NCBI GenBank assembly: GCA_018266755.1
Contig: JAFDZW010000005.1
Coordinates: 1,217,233 to 1,281,232 of the forward strand
Source of the DNA: Bacteroidota bacterium
Lineage (GTDB): Bacteria > Bacteroidota > Ignavibacteria > Palsa-1295
Reading direction: 5' to 3'
Length of the DNA stretch: 64,000 bases
The notes below the pieces were generated by a model, which worked only from the letters and a program-made list of their open reading frames with translations, was not told where the DNA came from and did no database searches. Shown here one piece after another: positions 38,746 through 49,001 of this stretch (position 1 is the first letter of the stretch; the number at the start of each line of letters is the position of its first letter). The position numbers and the translations under genes were made by a program.

Positions 38746-39198
38746 ATGGATCAACTTTCGTATTCTGTTTCGTACATATTGCAGAACTGCCATGCCATCT
38801 ACAACCGCAATCTTGGGGGCATTTCGCATACCGATAGTATCCGGTCGTTGCCGGGCGGGGGTAATTGCATCAATTGGATCGCCGGTCACCTGGTCGTCAG
38901 CCGCGACTCGTTTCGCCGACAGCTTGGGTTGCCGCTCGTGATACCGGAATCCTTCAAGGATCTTTATAAACGCGGGTCGGAGAACATCACACCTGCAAAT
39001 GCGGTGGACATCGAGGAGATCAAAGGAATGTATAATGCAAACCTGGACGGCATTATCGAAGCCCTGCCCAATGCTTCGCTACAACCAAATGCCGAACCGT
39101 ACGATACGCTCCTTTTTCTTTGCTTCCATGAGTCGTATCACGTCGGCCAGTTGGGGTTGGCTCGCCGAACACTGGGCTTCGAGGGCACGATCAAATAG
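38746..39198 (+). CDS. DinB-family four-helix-bundle protein
   Basis: A 150-residue DinB-fold protein. Its metal-type histidines are in WIAGHLVVSRDSF near residue 48 and in CFHESYHVGQLGLARR near residue 128, matching the HxxYHxGQ signature. The length is normal for the family. It is divergent from ileS and is followed by a terminator-like stem at 39215-39255. The substrate is unknown; DNA-damage-inducible and thiol-transferase members are known. Confidence 0.85.
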   Translation: MDQLSYSVSYILQNCHAIYNRNLGGISHTDSIRSLPGGGNCINWIAGHLVVSRDSFRRQLGLPLVIPESFKDLYKRGSENITPANAVDIEEIKGMYNANLDGIIEALPNASLQPNAEPYDTLLFLCFHESYHVGQLGLARRTLGFEGTIK

Positions 39199-39290: not shown

Positions 39291-40202
39291 TCACTTCACG
39301 ACCAGACGCTGTGTCTCGGTGATCGTACCGGTCTGCACGCGGAGCAAGTAGACACCTGGATGCAAACTATCGACGTCAAAGGCAATCGAGATCGGTGTCC
39401 CCGCCTGGATCTGCCCTTGATAGAGTTGTTTGACCAGAATTCCCATCACATCGTAGAGCCCGACATCGATATTTGTCGACGCATCCGAGGATATCTTGAA
39501 CTGTGTCGTCGCACCGGAGGCAACCGGATTCGGCGTCACGGCCGACACATCCACATCGATCAGGGGCGCAGAGATTCCGTGGTGTGTGGTCGTCGTCGTA
39601 TCGTCGCCGCACGTCATGCGAACGGTTGTCAGGATCGTGATCTCGGCTCGTCCGATCTGCACGATCTCGATCGACAGATCGACCGATTGCTTCACGAGCG
39701 AATCGATCAGGTCCTTCAGCGAATCGGCCGTCACCTTCTTCAGAGAATCCGATATCGTCGTGTCATGCGACGACTTCGCAAGCCTCCATTGAGCGACGAG
39801 TGAATCGATCTTCACACTGTTACTGTCGAGCAGCGCGAGGTCGGTCTTGATAAGAGCGGCAGTATCCGATGGCAGGAGCGTTAGGAAATATGCAAAGCAC
39901 GAATCGCTGAGACCGAAGGGATTATGCCCCTTCTCGAGTCCGGGCGGTACGGTTTTGACCGAATCGTCCGCGTCATGATCTCCTCTGGTCGAGTCGGACG
40001 GATTTTGATGATGGTGGGTGGAATCGCTGGGGTTTCCGTCGTCGTCGTCCTCGCGATCGTTATCACCATGCTCGTCATGGTGATGCTTGGACCACCCGAG
40101 GTGTCGACCGTGATCGTGATGGGGGTCGGCTTGGGAAGTACTGATACTCCCCATCGATAGAATCAGTAAAGCACAAAAACCAAATAGATAGAATTTTCTC
40201 AT
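39291..40202 (-). CDS. His/Asp-rich T9SS-exported protein
   Basis: A 303-residue secreted protein. After the signal, residues about 25-80 form a low-complexity His/Asp/Glu-rich stretch (DPHHDHGRHLG, SKHHHDEHGDN, DREDDDDGN), a plausible metal-binding tail. A helical region follows (about 85-190), whose heptad-like Leu/Ser pattern resembles Spy/CpxP-type periplasmic helices. A T9SS sorting domain (VTPNPVASGATTQF) ends the protein. No enzyme motif is visible. It stands alone on the minus strand. Confidence 0.82.
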   Translation of the reverse strand: MRKFYLFGFCALLILSMGSISTSQADPHHDHGRHLGWSKHHHDEHGDNDREDDDDGNPSDSTHHHQNPSDSTRGDHDADDSVKTVPPGLEKGHNPFGLSDSCFAYFLTLLPSDTAALIKTDLALLDSNSVKIDSLVAQWRLAKSSHDTTISDSLKKVTADSLKDLIDSLVKQSVDLSIEIVQIGRAEITILTTVRMTCGDDTTTTTHHGISAPLIDVDVSAVTPNPVASGATTQFKISSDASTNIDVGLYDVMGILVKQLYQGQIQAGTPISIAFDVDSLHPGVYLLRVQTGTITETQRLVVK

Positions 40203-40417: not shown

Positions 40418-40894
40418 ATGACGACAGAGAAGGCAACATTTGGCGCAGGATGTTTTTGGGGAGTCGAAGCGACCTTTCGTCAGATTCCGGGCGTTCTTTC
40501 GACGCAAGTCGGTTATTGCGGCGGCAAAACAGACCATCCGACATACGAGGATGTATGCTCGGACGAGACCGGCCATGCCGAGGTCGTCGAGGTGACATAC
40601 GACCCGACACGGGTTGACTATAACACCTTATTACAGGTCTTCTGGGAGAACCACAACCCTACGACGCTAAACCGCCAGGGCCCGGATATCGGCACACAAT
40701 ACCGCTCGGCGATCTTCTACCACAGCCCGCAACAGCAGGCTGCAGCAGAAGCATCGAAGAACGCTATGAATGCAAGCGGTAAATTCCGCAATCCGATCGT
40801 GACCGAGATCACCCCCGCCGCGGCATTCTGGCGCGCGGAGGAATACCATCAGCAGTATCTCGAAAAGCGGGGCCTCTCGAGCTGCCATATCTGA
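40418..40894 (+). CDS. msrA: Peptide methionine sulfoxide reductase MsrA
   Basis: A 158-residue MsrA that reduces Met-S-sulfoxide. The catalytic Cys is in [11 protein letters not shown] near residue 12; GYCGG and the C-terminal SSCHI hold candidate resolving cysteines. The conserved [22 protein letters not shown] and EEYHQQYL segments are all present. It has no signal peptide, so it is cytoplasmic, and it is convergent with an arylsulfotransferase-like gene. Confidence 0.97.
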
Positions 40895-40912: not shown

Positions 40913-42754
40913 CTATCGCGTCAGCAACACGGGTGCGCTCACTGGCACACCTGTAGCCGACACGATTCGGACAAAGTATGCACCGGCGGCAAGCCCTTGC
41001 ATATTTAAAGGGTTCGAATGCTCACCTGCGGATACCGTCCCTTCGAAGAGGGAGTTGAGTTTTCGACCGAGGCCATCATAGAGCGCAATATTCACTGGGC
41101 CGTCAACCGTCGTCGTGAATCGGATTTGTGCGAAATCATGAACCGGGTTCGGGGTACATTCGATGCGTGCGCCGGTCGCCATCGCTGTCTGCAATGAGAT
41201 CCCGAGGTTCCCTGAATGGACGTACTCATCCGGGAATTTGTATGCCCGGTAGCTGCATACAGCGCTGTCCATCGTCAGCTCAAATACGGTGCGATTGAAC
41301 GGTCCGACTTCGGTGACGGCGATGCCTCGGTTTTGCCCCCACCCGATGAGCGTATTTCCATTGTCGAGCCGTTGCACCGAGCCCATGGCAAATGTAAAGA
41401 TCGGAGGGTCATGACGGAATTCCCATATCTGCTTTGCGGTCTTGGCCACAGTATCGAGCGTGTATTCGACCGCCCGACTAAACACTCCGCCGCTATTATG
41501 GTAGTCGCCATTGTCGAAGAGCAGATACGTCCCGAGCGGAGTACTACGGATACTATGCTGATGCGAGAAGCCGACCGAATCTCCGGACACCGTGAACTGA
41601 TTGTTCTTCCCACCAAATCTCCAGATGATCGCACCGGTTGCCCGATCGATCTTCGTGATCTCGTCGAGATGGCGTGAGGTCAGGAGCAGATTTCCATCGT
41701 TATCAAGGTCGATACCGTTCATGTGGCAAAAGTCCACCGGCATCGGGCCGGTATTCTGCTCGTGCTCTATATCGGTGATCTTGAAGTGATCGAGTGCGCG
41801 CCATTCGAAAATGAGATTTCCGTCTTTATCGAACTCCTGAATAAGGTTATCCATGACGATCGCATTGCTATCTCCGCCTTCGACGATCGTGCGGAGGTCC
41901 ATCGGTATCGGATCGACGGCGATGAGATCATAACTCCCATCGGGGTGGAAGCGAAGTTCATGCGGATCCGTCTGATATCCGTTTGCGGCAGAAAGTGTAT
42001 CGAACCGAGTGTACTGAGAATCTAAGATGTAATATGTCGAGGTCGGCGCGTTAAAAAACGAATAGGTATTGTTCGGATGCGCCACAAAATCATAGACCGG
42101 CCCGAACCCCGGCTGACGCGAGAACAATACGCTTGCCTGTTTATCGAGTATCATGAGATACGGCAATGTCTGCGTGCCACCTGCGCCGATACTCGCGAGA
42201 TAGAGTCTGCCATCCGACGGATCGTCGTCATTAATGACCGTCAACAATGGCAACCCCTGCACTGCTGCATCGATCCCCTGTTGCTGGACGGGCGGATGCA
42301 ATAGCAGATCTGTCATCGGGTCGTCACTATGCCATGCGTGATTGAATGTGCCTTCTGCTGAGCGCACTGTAAAGCTCATTGACTGTGGGACAATCTTTCC
42401 CCCGTCGTCCGTCGGCAGTGCCATCCATCTGACAGTGACGCTTTCACCAAGTGCGAAGGGGCGATCGGGTGTAAAGATCACCGTTTTGTGGTCGGCAGAA
42501 AGCTTCAGGGCCCCTGTATAGAGACCGCCTCGTGAACCCGTGACTGTGATCGCAGCCGTATTCGTAATCGGCCCGCGAATCGCCGAAGCGAAGGATAGTC
42601 CGATCGCCGTATGTGGACTTGCGAATTTCGAACCATCCATCGGGTAGCTGCGAAGAAATGACGACGTTACCGATTGAGGGTTAGGATGAGACTGGGCCGA
42701 AGCTCCGCCCGCAACGATCAGTGCCGCAAGCAGCATTGTAAAAAAGGTGTTCAT
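40913..42754 (-). CDS. Arylsulfotransferase-fold T9SS protein, paralogue 1
   Basis: A 613-residue secreted protein. The signal peptide is followed by an Ig-like SbsA/Big_5 domain (PMDGSKFASPHTAIGLSF). An arylsulfotransferase-type (ASST) propeller comes next, with VDFCHMNGIDLDNDGN, SRHLDEITKIDRATG, GFSHQHSIR, FSRAVEYTLD and VQRLDNGNTLIGWG. A T9SS sorting domain beginning CTPNPVHDFAQIRF closes the chain. The His residues in DFCHMN and SHQH and the Arg in SRAVEY align with positions known to matter in E. coli AssT. Sulfate transfer between phenols is the family activity, but the true substrate is unknown. The start is the ATG at 42754; an in-frame TTG two codons upstream is rejected. Confidence 0.88.
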   Translation of the reverse strand: MNTFFTMLLAALIVAGGASAQSHPNPQSVTSSFLRSYPMDGSKFASPHTAIGLSFASAIRGPITNTAAITVTGSRGGLYTGALKLSADHKTVIFTPDRPFALGESVTVRWMALPTDDGGKIVPQSMSFTVRSAEGTFNHAWHSDDPMTDLLLHPPVQQQGIDAAVQGLPLLTVINDDDPSDGRLYLASIGAGGTQTLPYLMILDKQASVLFSRQPGFGPVYDFVAHPNNTYSFFNAPTSTYYILDSQYTRFDTLSAANGYQTDPHELRFHPDGSYDLIAVDPIPMDLRTIVEGGDSNAIVMDNLIQEFDKDGNLIFEWRALDHFKITDIEHEQNTGPMPVDFCHMNGIDLDNDGNLLLTSRHLDEITKIDRATGAIIWRFGGKNNQFTVSGDSVGFSHQHSIRSTPLGTYLLFDNGDYHNSGGVFSRAVEYTLDTVAKTAKQIWEFRHDPPIFTFAMGSVQRLDNGNTLIGWGQNRGIAVTEVGPFNRTVFELTMDSAVCSYRAYKFPDEYVHSGNLGISLQTAMATGARIECTPNPVHDFAQIRFTTTVDGPVNIALYDGLGRKLNSLFEGTVSAGEHSNPLNMQGLAAGAYFVRIVSATGVPVSAPVLLTR

Positions 42755-42956
42755 GTTCAAAACGAGTAAGAGACAACCGACACATTTGGGTAGGATGTGC
42801 CGAGAATATTATTTCAGTACTACACACACACAAGGGGAAGATAGTGCAAATTCTACTACACGATTCTCACTATAAAGGTTTACAGATTTCATCCGTATAC
42901 CGTGACGACCGAATTTTTATCGTAAAATGTCAGTGCCCACCAACCGTCGACTGTTG

Positions 42957-44798
42957 CTATTTCACAACGAGCAATTGCTGGGTCGCGACTACCGCACCGT
43001 TATACCGAAGCCGTAATTCGTACACACCATTCGCGAGTGAGCGGGCATCCAACGATACGTCTCCGGACTGGCCCACAAATTCCCGATCAAGAATATCCCC
43101 CATGCTTCGCCCGAGCGCATCGAACAAGGAAATTTGTACATGACCGGGATTTGGGAGAGCGATCGAGATGCGCGCCGTCGAACGGATCGGGTTCGGCGTA
43201 CAAACGATCGATGTAGAAGCTTCCGTTTGCACAGTCGCAGCGGCAAGCGAAGAAATCTTATTATATGTAGAATCGAATTTATAGGCTCGGTAGCTATAAT
43301 TGGAGCTATCGAGCACCATCTCGAATTGCGTAGCGCCAACCGGATCCACCTCCGTCACCGATGCGTCGTCGCACGCACCCCAGCCGATGAATGTATTGCC
43401 GTTCGGCAGCCGCTGAACATAGCCCATCGCGAAACCGTATAGGTCGGGATTATGCCTGAACGACCATACAAGTGTCGCCGTCTTGTTCACTGCATCAAGT
43501 TCAAATTCGGCTGCACGGCTGTACGATGGCATGTGTATCCGGAAGTTACCGTTGTCGAACATGGTGATATGTCCGTTGGGGAGCCGTCGAACTGCATGTT
43601 GATGCGAGAACGGCGTCGTATCGCCGACAAATACGAACTGATTGTGAAGCCCTCCCCAACGCCACATCAGATCGCCGGTTTGACGGTCGATTTTAGTAAT
43701 CTCGTCCATGTGCCGCGAAGAGAGGATGATATTACTATCGCTATCGAACTCGATGGCGTTCGAGTGACAAAAGTCGATCGTATGTTCGGCGAGGTTCTCA
43801 TGAGTGGCATCGGTGACGTTGAAATGATCAAGCGCACGCCATTGGAATACAAGGTTCTTATCCTCATCGAACTCCTGGATAACCGGACACAGCACGATGG
43901 CGGCAGTATCGCCTCCTTGATAATACCGGCTTACATCCATCGTCACGTAATCACCGGCAAGAATCAGATAATCGCCGTCCGGTGTGATCCGAAACTCGTG
44001 ACCGTCGGTGACATACCCATTCGTCGCGCGGATACTATCGATCGGATTAAATGCGCTATCGAGCACATAGAATGCTTCGGCTACGGCATCAAAGTACGAA
44101 TACCGACCATCTCCGAGCGGCTTGAAATCGTTGAAATAATGAGGTGTACCGTCGAATGCTGTTACGACCTGACCGTCCTTATCGAGGACAAAGCGAAACG
44201 CACCGACCTGCGAACTTACACCGAACCGATAATTCGTCATATAGACATTTCCGTCATACGGCTGCATGTCGGTCTTAACATTAAGTCCCGGCCAATCGCC
44301 GGGGACGGAAGTGAGCGGCCTCGTACTTACTCCCTTCCCGGTCGAGTGCCGCTTGTGCAGCATGCGTTCGAGAATGGGGTCATCGCTATGATATGACGAG
44401 TCCGGGACGACGGTCGCATGTGCGACAGTGAATGTAAGATCGAATGGATCGGTATGTTCCCCCTTGGTTGTCCGAAGCGTGCCGATATGAACGGTGATTC
44501 GTTCGCCGGTCCCGAACGATGCTATCGGCGAGATGATAAGGGTACGCAGATTCTTCGAAAGCTTCGTGTAAAATGCATATAGCTTCCCGTGTGGGCTGAG
44601 TACCCTGACGCTATCCTGAACGACAGAATGAAAATCGATCGAGGTAGAGTATGTGATTCCAATTGTCGTGGAAGCCGGTATGCTTGTTGATCCGGTACTG
44701 GGATAGGAATTCACAACGTGTGCCGGCGAAGCGACAACGCTCCCTGCGACAAGCAGACTACCGACGAATGCAACAAATTCGAAGTATATACGTCTCAT
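42957..44798 (-). CDS. Arylsulfotransferase-fold T9SS protein, paralogue 2
   Basis: A 613-residue paralogue with the same order of parts: signal, Ig-like domain (YPSTGSTSIPASTTIGITY), ASST propeller and T9SS sorting domain (CTPNPIRSTARISI). The propeller shows IDFCHSNAIEFDSDSN, SRHMDEITKIDRQTGDL, PFSHQHAVR, YSRAAEFELD and VQRLPNGNTFIGWG. The key His, His and Arg positions are kept. The start at 44798 is used because it opens the signal peptide; the in-frame extension upstream lacks signal character. The gap to paralogue 1 is about 200 bases. Confidence 0.88.
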   Translation of the reverse strand: MRRIYFEFVAFVGSLLVAGSVVASPAHVVNSYPSTGSTSIPASTTIGITYSTSIDFHSVVQDSVRVLSPHGKLYAFYTKLSKNLRTLIISPIASFGTGERITVHIGTLRTTKGEHTDPFDLTFTVAHATVVPDSSYHSDDPILERMLHKRHSTGKGVSTRPLTSVPGDWPGLNVKTDMQPYDGNVYMTNYRFGVSSQVGAFRFVLDKDGQVVTAFDGTPHYFNDFKPLGDGRYSYFDAVAEAFYVLDSAFNPIDSIRATNGYVTDGHEFRITPDGDYLILAGDYVTMDVSRYYQGGDTAAIVLCPVIQEFDEDKNLVFQWRALDHFNVTDATHENLAEHTIDFCHSNAIEFDSDSNIILSSRHMDEITKIDRQTGDLMWRWGGLHNQFVFVGDTTPFSHQHAVRRLPNGHITMFDNGNFRIHMPSYSRAAEFELDAVNKTATLVWSFRHNPDLYGFAMGYVQRLPNGNTFIGWGACDDASVTEVDPVGATQFEMVLDSSNYSYRAYKFDSTYNKISSLAAATVQTEASTSIVCTPNPIRSTARISIALPNPGHVQISLFDALGRSMGDILDREFVGQSGDVSLDARSLANGVYELRLRYNGAVVATQQLLVVK

Positions 44799-44916
44799 GA
44801 TCAGTACAGCTACAAGTGAATCGCAACGCGATCGTCTGCCACCATGAGACGGGCAGCAGCTACACAGGTTTAAAGAAAATTGACACCCATACAACTATTA
44901 TTCTCGCTTAGTACCT

Positions 44917-45453
44917 ATGGCCACTGATCACGTAAATCAACTTCGATATCCGATCGGACAATTTGACAAGGCGCCGAAGTATAGCCTCAACGAACGTCAG
45001 AAACACATCGAAATTCTTCGGACGCTGCCGGAGCTGATTCGTAAGTCTGTCAGCGGATTGAGGACGCCTCAACTCGATACGCCATATAGAGATGGCGGAT
45101 GGCGTGTGCGGCAGGTTGTGCACCACCTCGCTGATAGTCACATGAACGGGTTTATCCGGCATCGCCTCGCGCTGACGGAAGAAGAACCGACAATCCGCCC
45201 TTATATCGAGTCGGCATGGTCAGAGCTTCCAGACGCTGAGGCCGATGTTTCGTTATCGCTGACGTTACTCGAAGGTTTGCACCAACGGTGGTCCACTATG
45301 CTGGACAGGCTCACAGCGGAGCAATTCGAGCGGACCTATATCCACCCCGAATCAGGGAAATGGACACTCGAACAAAGCGTTGCAAATTATGCCTGGCATT
45401 CGTTGCATCACGTTGCCCACATCACGTCGTTGCGCACACGAAACGGGTGGTGA
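44917..45453 (+). CDS. YfiT/DinB-type metal-binding protein
   Basis: A 178-residue YfiT-like DinB-fold protein, close to the Bacillus YfiT (putative metal-dependent hydrolase or bacillithiol transferase) by its opening (LRYPIGQFDKAPKYS) and its Met/His pattern. Metal-type histidines are in VRQVVHHLADSHMNGF and WHSLHHVAHITSL. It sits between two arylsulfotransferase-like genes, divergent from one and directly abutting the other (stop codons adjacent at 45453/45454). Confidence 0.9.
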   Translation: MATDHVNQLRYPIGQFDKAPKYSLNERQKHIEILRTLPELIRKSVSGLRTPQLDTPYRDGGWRVRQVVHHLADSHMNGFIRHRLALTEEEPTIRPYIESAWSELPDAEADVSLSLTLLEGLHQRWSTMLDRLTAEQFERTYIHPESGKWTLEQSVANYAWHSLHHVAHITSLRTRNGW

Positions 45454-47277
45454 TTACTTCACGATCATTACCGACGAGTACTGCATCTCACCGCCGGAGC
45501 TGAGCTGGAGATAATAGCTGCCTGCAGGAATATGTCGTGCATCGATCGTAGCAGAATAGGATCCCTCACTGAGATTTTCGTGTGCGATCGATGCGACCGG
45601 CCTGCCGAGGAGATCGAATAGCGTCACGTCGATCGGTGATGTGTGTGCCACAGAAAAGCGCACTTCCGCACTCTCTCGAACGGGATTCGGATAGCATTGC
45701 ATCGTACTTGATAGCGATACATCTGCTGTCTTCCGTACAGCAGACTGAAGATACCCGACAGGATACTTATACGCACGATAACTGTAATTGCCACTGTCCA
45801 TCGACATTTCAAATACGGTTCGGTTGAAGGGCCCGACTTCCGTCACTGCAACATTTGCACAGGCCCCCCAGCCGATAAGCGTGTTGCCGTTCGGCAAGCG
45901 CTGTACATATCCCATCGCGTACCCGTATGTGAGTGGCTGGTGCCGAAATTCCCATACCTGCGACGCGACCTTGTTTACCTGATCGAGTTTGTATTCGACG
46001 GCTCGACTGAACGTTGCACCATGCTGGTGATAATTTCCATTATCGAACAGCGTATAGGTACCGGTCGGTACATATCGGATCGCATGCTGATGCGAAAATC
46101 CGGTCGTATCGAACCGAAACGTAAATTCGTTGTGCTTGCCGCCCCACCGCCATATGATCTCACCGGTTTGACGATTGACCTTGGTGATCTCATCCATATG
46201 GCGGCACGAGAGGAGCAGGTTACCATCGGTATCGATCTCAATCGCGTTCATATGGCAATAATCGACGATAGGGCCGGACAACGACTCGTTTTCAATATCG
46301 GTCAATTGATAGTGATCAAGCCCTCGCCACTCCCAGATAAGATTATTTCCCTTGTCGAATTCCTGCACCACATTATCGATGACGGTTGCATTACTATCCG
46401 CCCCCGGAAAGACCGGTCGCATATCCTTCTTGAAGTAGTGCAGGGCGATCACATAGTAACTGCCATCCGCATTATAGCGGAAGTCATGGCCATCCATATC
46501 ATATCCGTTGGCCGCACGCAGTGTATCGGTCACATTCATGTTCGAATCGAGTACCACGAATGTCGAGGTGGGCGAATCGAAGTATGTGTATCTCCCGTTC
46601 GAATGCGGCTTGAAATCCAGGATCACATGCGAATCACTCGTTTGAGCATAGAGTATGCTCCCCTGTTTGTCGAGCACCATCCGATACGTCTCTCCCTGCG
46701 TTTGTACGAATTTGAAATTCGCCATGTACAACTTGCCGTCGGACGGATCGTCGTCGTTATCAACGGTAAGCAGCGGAAATCCCTGAGGGGTCGGGGTGAG
46801 ATCGGCTGAGCGATCGTAGCGAAAACCACCCGCACGTGCACGGACGGCCATCTGCGTGATCGGATCGTCGCCGGTGTAGTTCAACTCTGTCGGTGCGCTT
46901 GCCTCTTCGGTGACAAAGTTTGTGGTGTATGCATCGGAATGGCCACTTGTCGCATATGCCAACGGACCAACGGCGAGCGTCACATGCTCATTCGTATGAA
47001 AGGGCTGTGCCGGTGTAAAGATCAGCGTCTTCGCATCCGCCGAAAGCCGGACGGACCCCGCAGAGACACGACCTCCGGCCCCTCTCACAACGATCGAACC
47101 AACATCAAGAGCCTGCTTGTCGATCGGACGCGGATATACGATTGCGATGGACGTCCGAACACTCACTTGCTGTGCACCGGCAATCGGATACACGGCACGA
47201 ATTGCCGTCTGCGCTTCAGTACTGCGTCCGAAGAGTATTGCACACAATGCCAAAACGATCGATGGGAGAAAACGCAT
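45454..47277 (-). CDS. Arylsulfotransferase-fold T9SS protein, paralogue 3
   Basis: A 607-residue paralogue with the same domain order as the two neighbouring ones: signal, Ig-like domain, ASST propeller, T9SS sorting domain. The propeller shows VDYCHMNAIEIDTDGN, SCRHMDEITKVNRQTGEI, GFSHQHAIR, FSRAVEYKLD and VQRLPNGNTLIGWG; the sorting domain starts CYPNPVRESAEVRF. Paralogues 1 and 3 look slightly closer to each other (VTEVGPFNRTVFE shared) than either does to paralogue 2. It shares no base with the abutting YfiT-like gene. Confidence 0.88.
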   Translation of the reverse strand: MRFLPSIVLALCAILFGRSTEAQTAIRAVYPIAGAQQVSVRTSIAIVYPRPIDKQALDVGSIVVRGAGGRVSAGSVRLSADAKTLIFTPAQPFHTNEHVTLAVGPLAYATSGHSDAYTTNFVTEEASAPTELNYTGDDPITQMAVRARAGGFRYDRSADLTPTPQGFPLLTVDNDDDPSDGKLYMANFKFVQTQGETYRMVLDKQGSILYAQTSDSHVILDFKPHSNGRYTYFDSPTSTFVVLDSNMNVTDTLRAANGYDMDGHDFRYNADGSYYVIALHYFKKDMRPVFPGADSNATVIDNVVQEFDKGNNLIWEWRGLDHYQLTDIENESLSGPIVDYCHMNAIEIDTDGNLLLSCRHMDEITKVNRQTGEIIWRWGGKHNEFTFRFDTTGFSHQHAIRYVPTGTYTLFDNGNYHQHGATFSRAVEYKLDQVNKVASQVWEFRHQPLTYGYAMGYVQRLPNGNTLIGWGACANVAVTEVGPFNRTVFEMSMDSGNYSYRAYKYPVGYLQSAVRKTADVSLSSTMQCYPNPVRESAEVRFSVAHTSPIDVTLFDLLGRPVASIAHENLSEGSYSATIDARHIPAGSYYLQLSSGGEMQYSSVMIVK

Positions 47278-47493: not shown

Positions 47494-47907
47494 TTACTTA
47501 TTCTCGCCGAGTGCATTCTTCTGAGCACTTACGAGCGTCACGGTGAAATTCTTGTTGAGATCCGAAGTCTTCGCAACTTCCGGCGTCTCGACCATTTCAT
47601 CCTTCGTGACGATGTTCTCGCCTTCGAGGTGTACCCAGTACTTCTTGCCGGGCTGCAGGACTACGAGGTACTTCCCGCTCTCGCTATTCGAGACGCTACC
47701 GGTGATCTCGATGGCCTTATTGCCGATCTCGCGTACACTGACACGAACCGAATGCGCCTTGCCAGTCTGATCGGCTCTGACCGTTCCGCGCAAGAGCACG
47801 ACGGCCTTATTGAACTGCGCTTCGGCGTTCGAAGCGAACAGCATAACGATCATGGCCCCAACGAGTGCAAAGAGTGTCTGCTTTCCGGTTTGCGTCTTCA
47901 TGTTCAT
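47494..47907 (-). CDS. Small secreted regulatory-like beta-domain protein
   Basis: A 137-residue exported protein with signal MNMKTQTGKQTLFALVGAM...SNAEA. A single beta-sandwich follows (VLLRGTVRADQTGKAHSVRVSV, then YLVVLQPGKKYWVHLEG). It is clearly paralogous to the first half of the OmpA-like protein at 6888-7676, with the shared LQPGxxY and (V/L)xL(V/R)(K/R)G segments. No OmpA part is present. The gene is monocistronic with its own terminator. The function is unknown. Confidence 0.8.
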   Translation of the reverse strand: MNMKTQTGKQTLFALVGAMIVMLFASNAEAQFNKAVVLLRGTVRADQTGKAHSVRVSVREIGNKAIEITGSVSNSESGKYLVVLQPGKKYWVHLEGENIVTKDEMVETPEVAKTSDLNKNFTVTLVSAQKNALGENK

Positions 47908-48086
47908 GATTTTGTCTATTTTTATATTCATCTGCTGGGGCGATACTGTAATTGGTGACAAAAAGCGTGCCAAATCTATTCAATAACCGTAATTTAATAT
48001 AATATCAATAATTTACAGTATATTAACAAGGCAGTATAACGAATGAACAGCTGAATCCGTGACAGAAATCGGCTAATATTTTCTAA

Positions 48087-48923
48087 TTACTGCGGCATCT
48101 TTATTTTTACGTTCATTCCGGAGGTATTTTCTTTTGCCTGAGAGTACTCGATCTCAAGTGTCTGCAAACCGGAGGTAGCACGGATCAGTGTCGGGAGGGT
48201 AAACTGAGAATCATCGATCGTGTTGCCACTATAGTGTACATCGAGATCGGGGTGTCGAAGGTCGAGTGCGCTCAGATCGAGAATGCCATTCCATCGCTGG
48301 TAGGATACAAGTCTGATCCCCGTGCTGCTGGTGCGATAGGTCACCGCCTCGGTGCAGTTTTCACCCGGGCGACAAATGACGAGCCGGGAGCGATCGCGAT
48401 CGATCGTTTGTGTCTTGGCAGCCGTGAGTTCATCTTCTGTCAGGCGGACAGGTGAAATGCCAAAGACAAGATCGTTCAGCAGCGTCAGCGAAAGCCCTTT
48501 CATCCCGGTCAGCTTCTCTAACGTCTTCGGATCCGGACGGCCTTGGTAGTGTTCGCCTTCGATCGCATTATAGAAATTAAACTCGTTCGACGAACCCAAA
48601 AACTTCGCCGCGGTGATACCGAACGGACCGCTGATGACCATGCTGAGTGAATCGCCCCCTGCATTCGCACGTTTCGAGCGTAGCGTGAACTGCCCGCTCT
48701 GCGATGACTCCCCGTCTCGCAGTGTAATCGTCCCCTCGGCGTAGAGTGTCTGACAAATGCCTGCGATTCGGCAGAGTTCGTCGTTCACGCGGCGGACATC
48801 CTCTGCTGTCGTTGGCTTCGTTTCGGCTGGGGTGTTCACCTTCGACGACGTCGTGGTAGTAGACGTACTCGTACATGCCGCCAGGGTTGCAGATAGAAGA
48901 AGAATTAGTAGTAATCTACTCAT
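48087..48923 (-). CDS. DUF4292/LolA-LolB-fold lipoprotein
   Basis: A 278-residue lipoprotein (signal ending TLAAC, Cys 17). A Thr/Ser-rich linker is followed by a beta-sheet domain with the pattern of the DUF4292/LolB-like fold (YAEGTITLRDGESSQSGQFTL, then FGITAAKFLGSSNEFNFYNAIEG). Members of this fold handle lipids or lipoproteins at the outer membrane. The start is the ATG at 48923 rather than the TTG just before it. An AT-rich gap of about 180 bp lies downstream. Confidence 0.8.
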   Translation of the reverse strand: MSRLLLILLLSATLAACTSTSTTTTSSKVNTPAETKPTTAEDVRRVNDELCRIAGICQTLYAEGTITLRDGESSQSGQFTLRSKRANAGGDSLSMVISGPFGITAAKFLGSSNEFNFYNAIEGEHYQGRPDPKTLEKLTGMKGLSLTLLNDLVFGISPVRLTEDELTAAKTQTIDRDRSRLVICRPGENCTEAVTYRTSSTGIRLVSYQRWNGILDLSALDLRHPDLDVHYSGNTIDDSQFTLPTLIRATSGLQTLEIEYSQAKENTSGMNVKIKMPQ

Positions 48924-49001
48924 CAATACTGTTTACTCTGTTCGGGCAGGGAGAGTTTCAAACACAGTTCTGTAATGAAACTGCAGGATGTCTATCACAT
49001 G

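Follow-up and report, generated by a model that had tools for sequence, protein, structure and literature searches.

Three arylsulfotransferase paralogues with T9SS sorting domains in an Ignavibacteria genome: probable extracellular, PAPS-independent sulfotransferases

Three neighbouring arylsulfotransferase (ASST) genes of a Bacteroidota bacterium (class Ignavibacteria) probably encode PAPS-independent sulfotransferases of the AssT/Cpz4 class that work outside the cell and, judging from their sequences, would act by a ping-pong mechanism and take sulfuryl groups from exogenous aryl sulfates. This kind of enzyme is already known, and its predicted delivery to the surface by T9SS follows the habit of the lineage. 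The genes lie in a stretch of 64,000 nucleotides (the window) of contig JAFDZW010000005.1, and their open reading frames are intact and uninterrupted, with the ends that a first, sequence-only reading of the window had given them:

40913..42754, minus strand: ASST paralogue 1, 613 aa; signal peptide, Big_5-like domain, ASST propeller, T9SS type A sorting domain
42957..44798, minus strand: ASST paralogue 2, 613 aa; architecture as paralogue 1
45454..47277, minus strand: ASST paralogue 3, 607 aa; architecture as paralogue 1

Architecture and export

The architecture that the sequence-only reading ascribed to all three proteins (signal, Ig-like domain, ASST propeller, T9SS sorting domain) is borne out by Pfam and NCBIfam, with the signal peptides called by eye only. 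The ASST domain PF05935 is matched far above cut-off in each (E 4e-35 to 9e-25), PF14269 is matched by all three as well (E about 1e-25), and the Ig-like domain Big_5 scores above cut-off in paralogues 2 and 3 and slightly below it in paralogue 1. Measured against paralogue 1 over the full length, paralogue 2 has 39% and paralogue 3 has 45% identity; when only the propeller is compared, with paralogue 3 as the reference, the values are 59% for paralogue 1 and 53% for paralogue 2. No other gene of the genome (3.55 Mb, rated 100% complete) matches PF05935. A search upstream of the three genes for a Bacteroidetes-type promoter motif found none.

The sorting domains of paralogues 1, 2 and 3 score 28.6, 24.4 and 35.5 bits against TIGR04183 (cut-off 23), while the Por_Secre_tail match of paralogue 2 falls below Pfam's own cut-off. 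The genome has sprA, which encodes the T9SS translocon (a 2452-aa frame with a SprA_N match of 173.9 bits), together with at least 150 sorting domains, a lower bound, since 150 of 233 candidates were scored. T9SS delivery, which had been read as something special to these proteins, is therefore routine: no difference was seen between the three ASSTs and other type A cargo, and theirs are three of the at least 150 such domains. Nor is it a peculiarity of the locus. Por_Secre_tail is matched by 48 and TIGR04183 by 49 of 59 related ASSTs (E 0.01), a set that counts these three, so that export by T9SS is the rule among the relatives. The three proteins would be exported by Sec and then carried over the outer membrane by T9SS through their C-terminal domains, to a predicted extracellular or surface location.

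Closest known enzymes and the catalytic residues

The closest solved relative of the three ASSTs is Cpz4 of the Streptomyces caprazamycin pathway, not AssT. Paralogue 3 was modelled with AlphaFold (pLDDT 79.7, pTM 0.71), and a fold search with the model retrieves Cpz4 as the best PDB match (9kf6, E 2.2e-29; the identity of 9kf4-9kf6 as Cpz4 is taken from the fold library), followed by AssT (3elq, E 3.3e-18). A sequence search of PDB returns the same ranking, with E about 1e-39 for Cpz4 when a profile is used. TM-scores by query length are moderate (0.51 to Cpz4, 0.46 to AssT), as would fit a differing arrangement of domains round a common propeller, and identity in the structural alignments is low (23% and about 14%).

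Each of these enzymes resembles the three ASSTs in part. Cpz4 (9kf4, 9kf6) has the propeller and the catalytic His, Asn and Arg positions in common with them, but its 472-residue chain has no matched T9SS domain and its host is a different kind of organism. In AssT of uropathogenic E. coli CFT073 (3elq) an N-terminal Ig-like domain precedes the propeller, as it does here, although that domain is PF17425 in AssT and Big_5 in the three ASSTs. Unlike them, AssT is periplasmic, has an essential C418-C424 disulfide and Thr501 and is encoded next to dsbL/dsbI; the positions of Cys418 and Cys424 are occupied by His and Arg in the three ASSTs, and no DsbA-family match was found among the neighbouring genes scanned. 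AdpST was also considered for comparison and set aside as a PAPS-dependent enzyme.

For AssT, histidine sulfation and a ping-pong mechanism are established (PMC13426309). The AssT sequence of the E. coli CFT073 record was aligned with 63 homologues, taken from the window and from relatives; positions are numbered by the 607-aa paralogue 3. (The record, L055:33858-35654, contains an unreadable codon that leaves precursor residue 172 as X.) Five sulfuryl-binding residues of AssT, the nucleophile among them, are matched by identical residues in all three paralogues: H252 by H264 (conserved in 62 of 63 homologues), H356 by H342 (63/63), N358 by N344 (63/63), R374 by R359 (61/63) and the nucleophile H436 by H398 (62/63). 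The nucleophile, whose location by alignment to AssT the sequence-only reading had proposed as a check, is thus found in paralogue 3, with equivalents in paralogues 1 and 2:

46084..46086, minus strand: codon of H398 of paralogue 3, aligned with the AssT nucleophile His436

The same reading had picked out the His of DFCHMN-type and SHQH segments and the Arg of SRAVEY-type segments as key AssT positions. In substance it was right, and two of its assignments need correction. In SHQH it is the last His that is equivalent to the nucleophile; the first is variable (His in 25/63). The SRAVEY Arg (R425) aligns with the Arg of YSRFVEY in AssT and is conserved in 60/63, but it is absent from the listed active-site residues of AssT, and the equivalent of R374 sits instead in an S(S/C)RH segment. 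A further listed active-site residue, Thr501, corresponds to Met455 here (Met in 48/63, Thr in 2/63); we did not treat it as defining for the wider ASST class.

When the 342 propeller columns are ranked by conservation, all five catalytic sites are in the top 22 (P about 7e-7, rising to about 4e-6 with the unconserved T501 counted as a sixth site); these P values assume columns to be independent draws and serve as a guide only. This conservation bears on the idea that the proteins are propellers that have lost catalysis and serve for structure or binding. In favour of it, many beta-propellers are binding proteins, and surface-exposed propeller lipoproteins also appear in the PDB fold search, but such a role is very unlikely for propellers whose catalytic residues belong to the best-conserved columns of the family. 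Because these residues are identical in all three paralogues and retained in 61 to 63 of 63 homologues, the three proteins are, on sequence grounds, far likelier to be active PAPS-independent sulfotransferases than structural propellers. One catalytic residue is lost in each of four of the 63 homologues, and in one of these the loss is of the nucleophile: L038:11923-13725, the fourth ASST of a relative's tandem array, has its nucleophilic His replaced by Arg and is likely an inactive copy.

Donors, acceptors and gene neighbourhood

We infer that the three ASSTs are active and share the ping-pong chemistry of AssT. An aryl sulfate would first hand its sulfuryl group to the propeller His (H398 of paralogue 3), with release of the phenol, and in the second half-reaction the His would pass the group to a hydroxyl acceptor. 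Candidate acceptors are phenolics or, as for Cpz4, sugar hydroxyls; Cpz4 uses aryl sulfates as sulfuryl donors and favours sugar hydroxyls as acceptors (PMC13426309). The caprazamycin pathway makes its own aryl sulfate donor first, through the PAPS-dependent Cpz8 (PMC6731281; PMC4257720), a dedicated internal supply with no equivalent found in this genome. PAPS-dependent sulfotransferases of families PF00685 and PF13469 are absent from all 13 genomes of the family, and the type III polyketide synthase domain PF02797, present in 11 of those 13, is missing from this one. Given the absence of PAPS-dependent enzymes in the families searched, the three ASSTs most likely draw on aryl sulfates of the cell's surroundings as donors.

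A nutritional role, raised by the sequence-only reading as sulfate scavenging, is disfavoured. Enzymes outside the cell could reach sulfate esters in the environment, but the ASST reaction shifts sulfate onto another acceptor without releasing it, and searches of the genome found neither a type I sulfatase (PF00884) nor a PAPS reductase, the latter search matching in 14 of 14 control genomes. The sole APS kinase match was rejected as P-loop similarity in a frame that by eye resembles shikimate kinase-dehydroquinate synthase. As nothing detected would free or assimilate sulfate, scavenging is highly improbable.

A narrower version of the explanation that we prefer fixes the acceptor: the ASSTs would sulfate sugar hydroxyls of the cell's own polysaccharide or glycolipid and so produce a charged coat. 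The preference of Cpz4, the closest solved relative, points this way, as does a sorting domain that would put the enzyme at or past the outer membrane. On the other hand, the Cpz4-type donor supply (PAPS-dependent sulfotransferase plus type III polyketide) was not found in the genome, and no glycan-synthesis genes recur in the annotated gene clusters shared around the ASSTs of relatives. We consider sulfation of the cell's own glycans less likely than not. The neighbours that do recur in relatives (BNR/sortilin-like propellers, S-adenosylmethionine synthetase, a transketolase-like protein, amidase, ABC transporter) were considered and show no coherent sulfation theme. BNR/sortilin-like propeller proteins stand in or beside the ASST groups of three relatives (L034:10168-12267, L046:2116-4287, L053:3594-5282).

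In the window itself, the genes next to or between the ASSTs are as follows:

40418..40894, plus strand: MsrA, peptide methionine sulfoxide reductase, a syntenic neighbour of the ASSTs
44917..45453, plus strand: YfiT-family bacillithiol transferase gene (NF009807, 236.6 bits, cut-off 160)
47494..47973, minus strand: small secreted-looking protein of no known family, 52-56% identical to neighbours in L024 and L043

The interleaving of ASST genes with YfiT had been taken as meaningful and appears to be a matter of neighbourhood. In a genome from another genus of the family (G002), a homologue of the radical SAM gene of the window, MsrA and YfiT stand in a row on one strand, and two ASSTs with a protein like that at 47494..47973 stand on the opposite strand. 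We rejected a functional link of the ASSTs with YfiT or MsrA, which this synteny marks as mere neighbours; YfiT probably takes no part in sulfotransfer. Two other genomes of the family also have the small secreted-looking protein beside their ASSTs; it has no convincing Pfam or NCBIfam match.

Three further genes nearby may be recorded. A T9SS sorting-domain protein beside MsrA (39291-40202, minus strand) has a His/Asp-rich, possibly metal-binding N-terminal region (HHDHGRH...HHHDEHGDNDREDDDD). A second gene of the DinB superfamily (38746-39198, plus strand; PF12867 weak and below cut-off) lies about 6 kb from the YfiT gene. A lipoprotein at 48087-48926 (minus strand) resembles LolB1_Flavo at 40.6 bits, under the cut-off of 50, and is also found near an ASST in L024.

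Distribution and significance

A full-length ASST profile is swamped by matches to the sorting domain, so the distribution was redone with the propeller alone. With the propeller profile, matches turn up in 11 of the family's 13 genomes and, across the class, in 110 of 293, often several in one genome. Related ASSTs come from uncultured Bacteroidota, Ignavibacteriota, Calditrichota, KSB1 and Verrucomicrobiota assemblies. In a quick tree (SH-aLRT support only) the three window copies group with a copy from the same genus (support 97), and other genera have tandem groups of their own, up to four copies in one stretch. It would appear that the three copies arose through gene duplication within the lineage, and they probably differ in acceptor or donor preference.

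A broader proposal, which we consider unlikely, is that the lineage as a whole maintains an expanded extracellular set for sulfuryl exchange. Such a set would recycle aryl sulfates that the environment or neighbours supply, either to decorate the cell's own surface or for exchange within the community, in cells that cannot make PAPS-dependent sulfate esters of their own.

No paper combining "arylsulfotransferase" and "T9SS" was found in the open literature searched, which omits most subscription papers. What most bacterial ASSTs act on in nature, and to what end, is unknown (PMC13426309). Bacteria with several apparently intact, exported ASSTs and without the usual PAPS-dependent enzymes would be a good place to seek the physiological role of this class, and their ASSTs may be a source of new sulfation biocatalysts.
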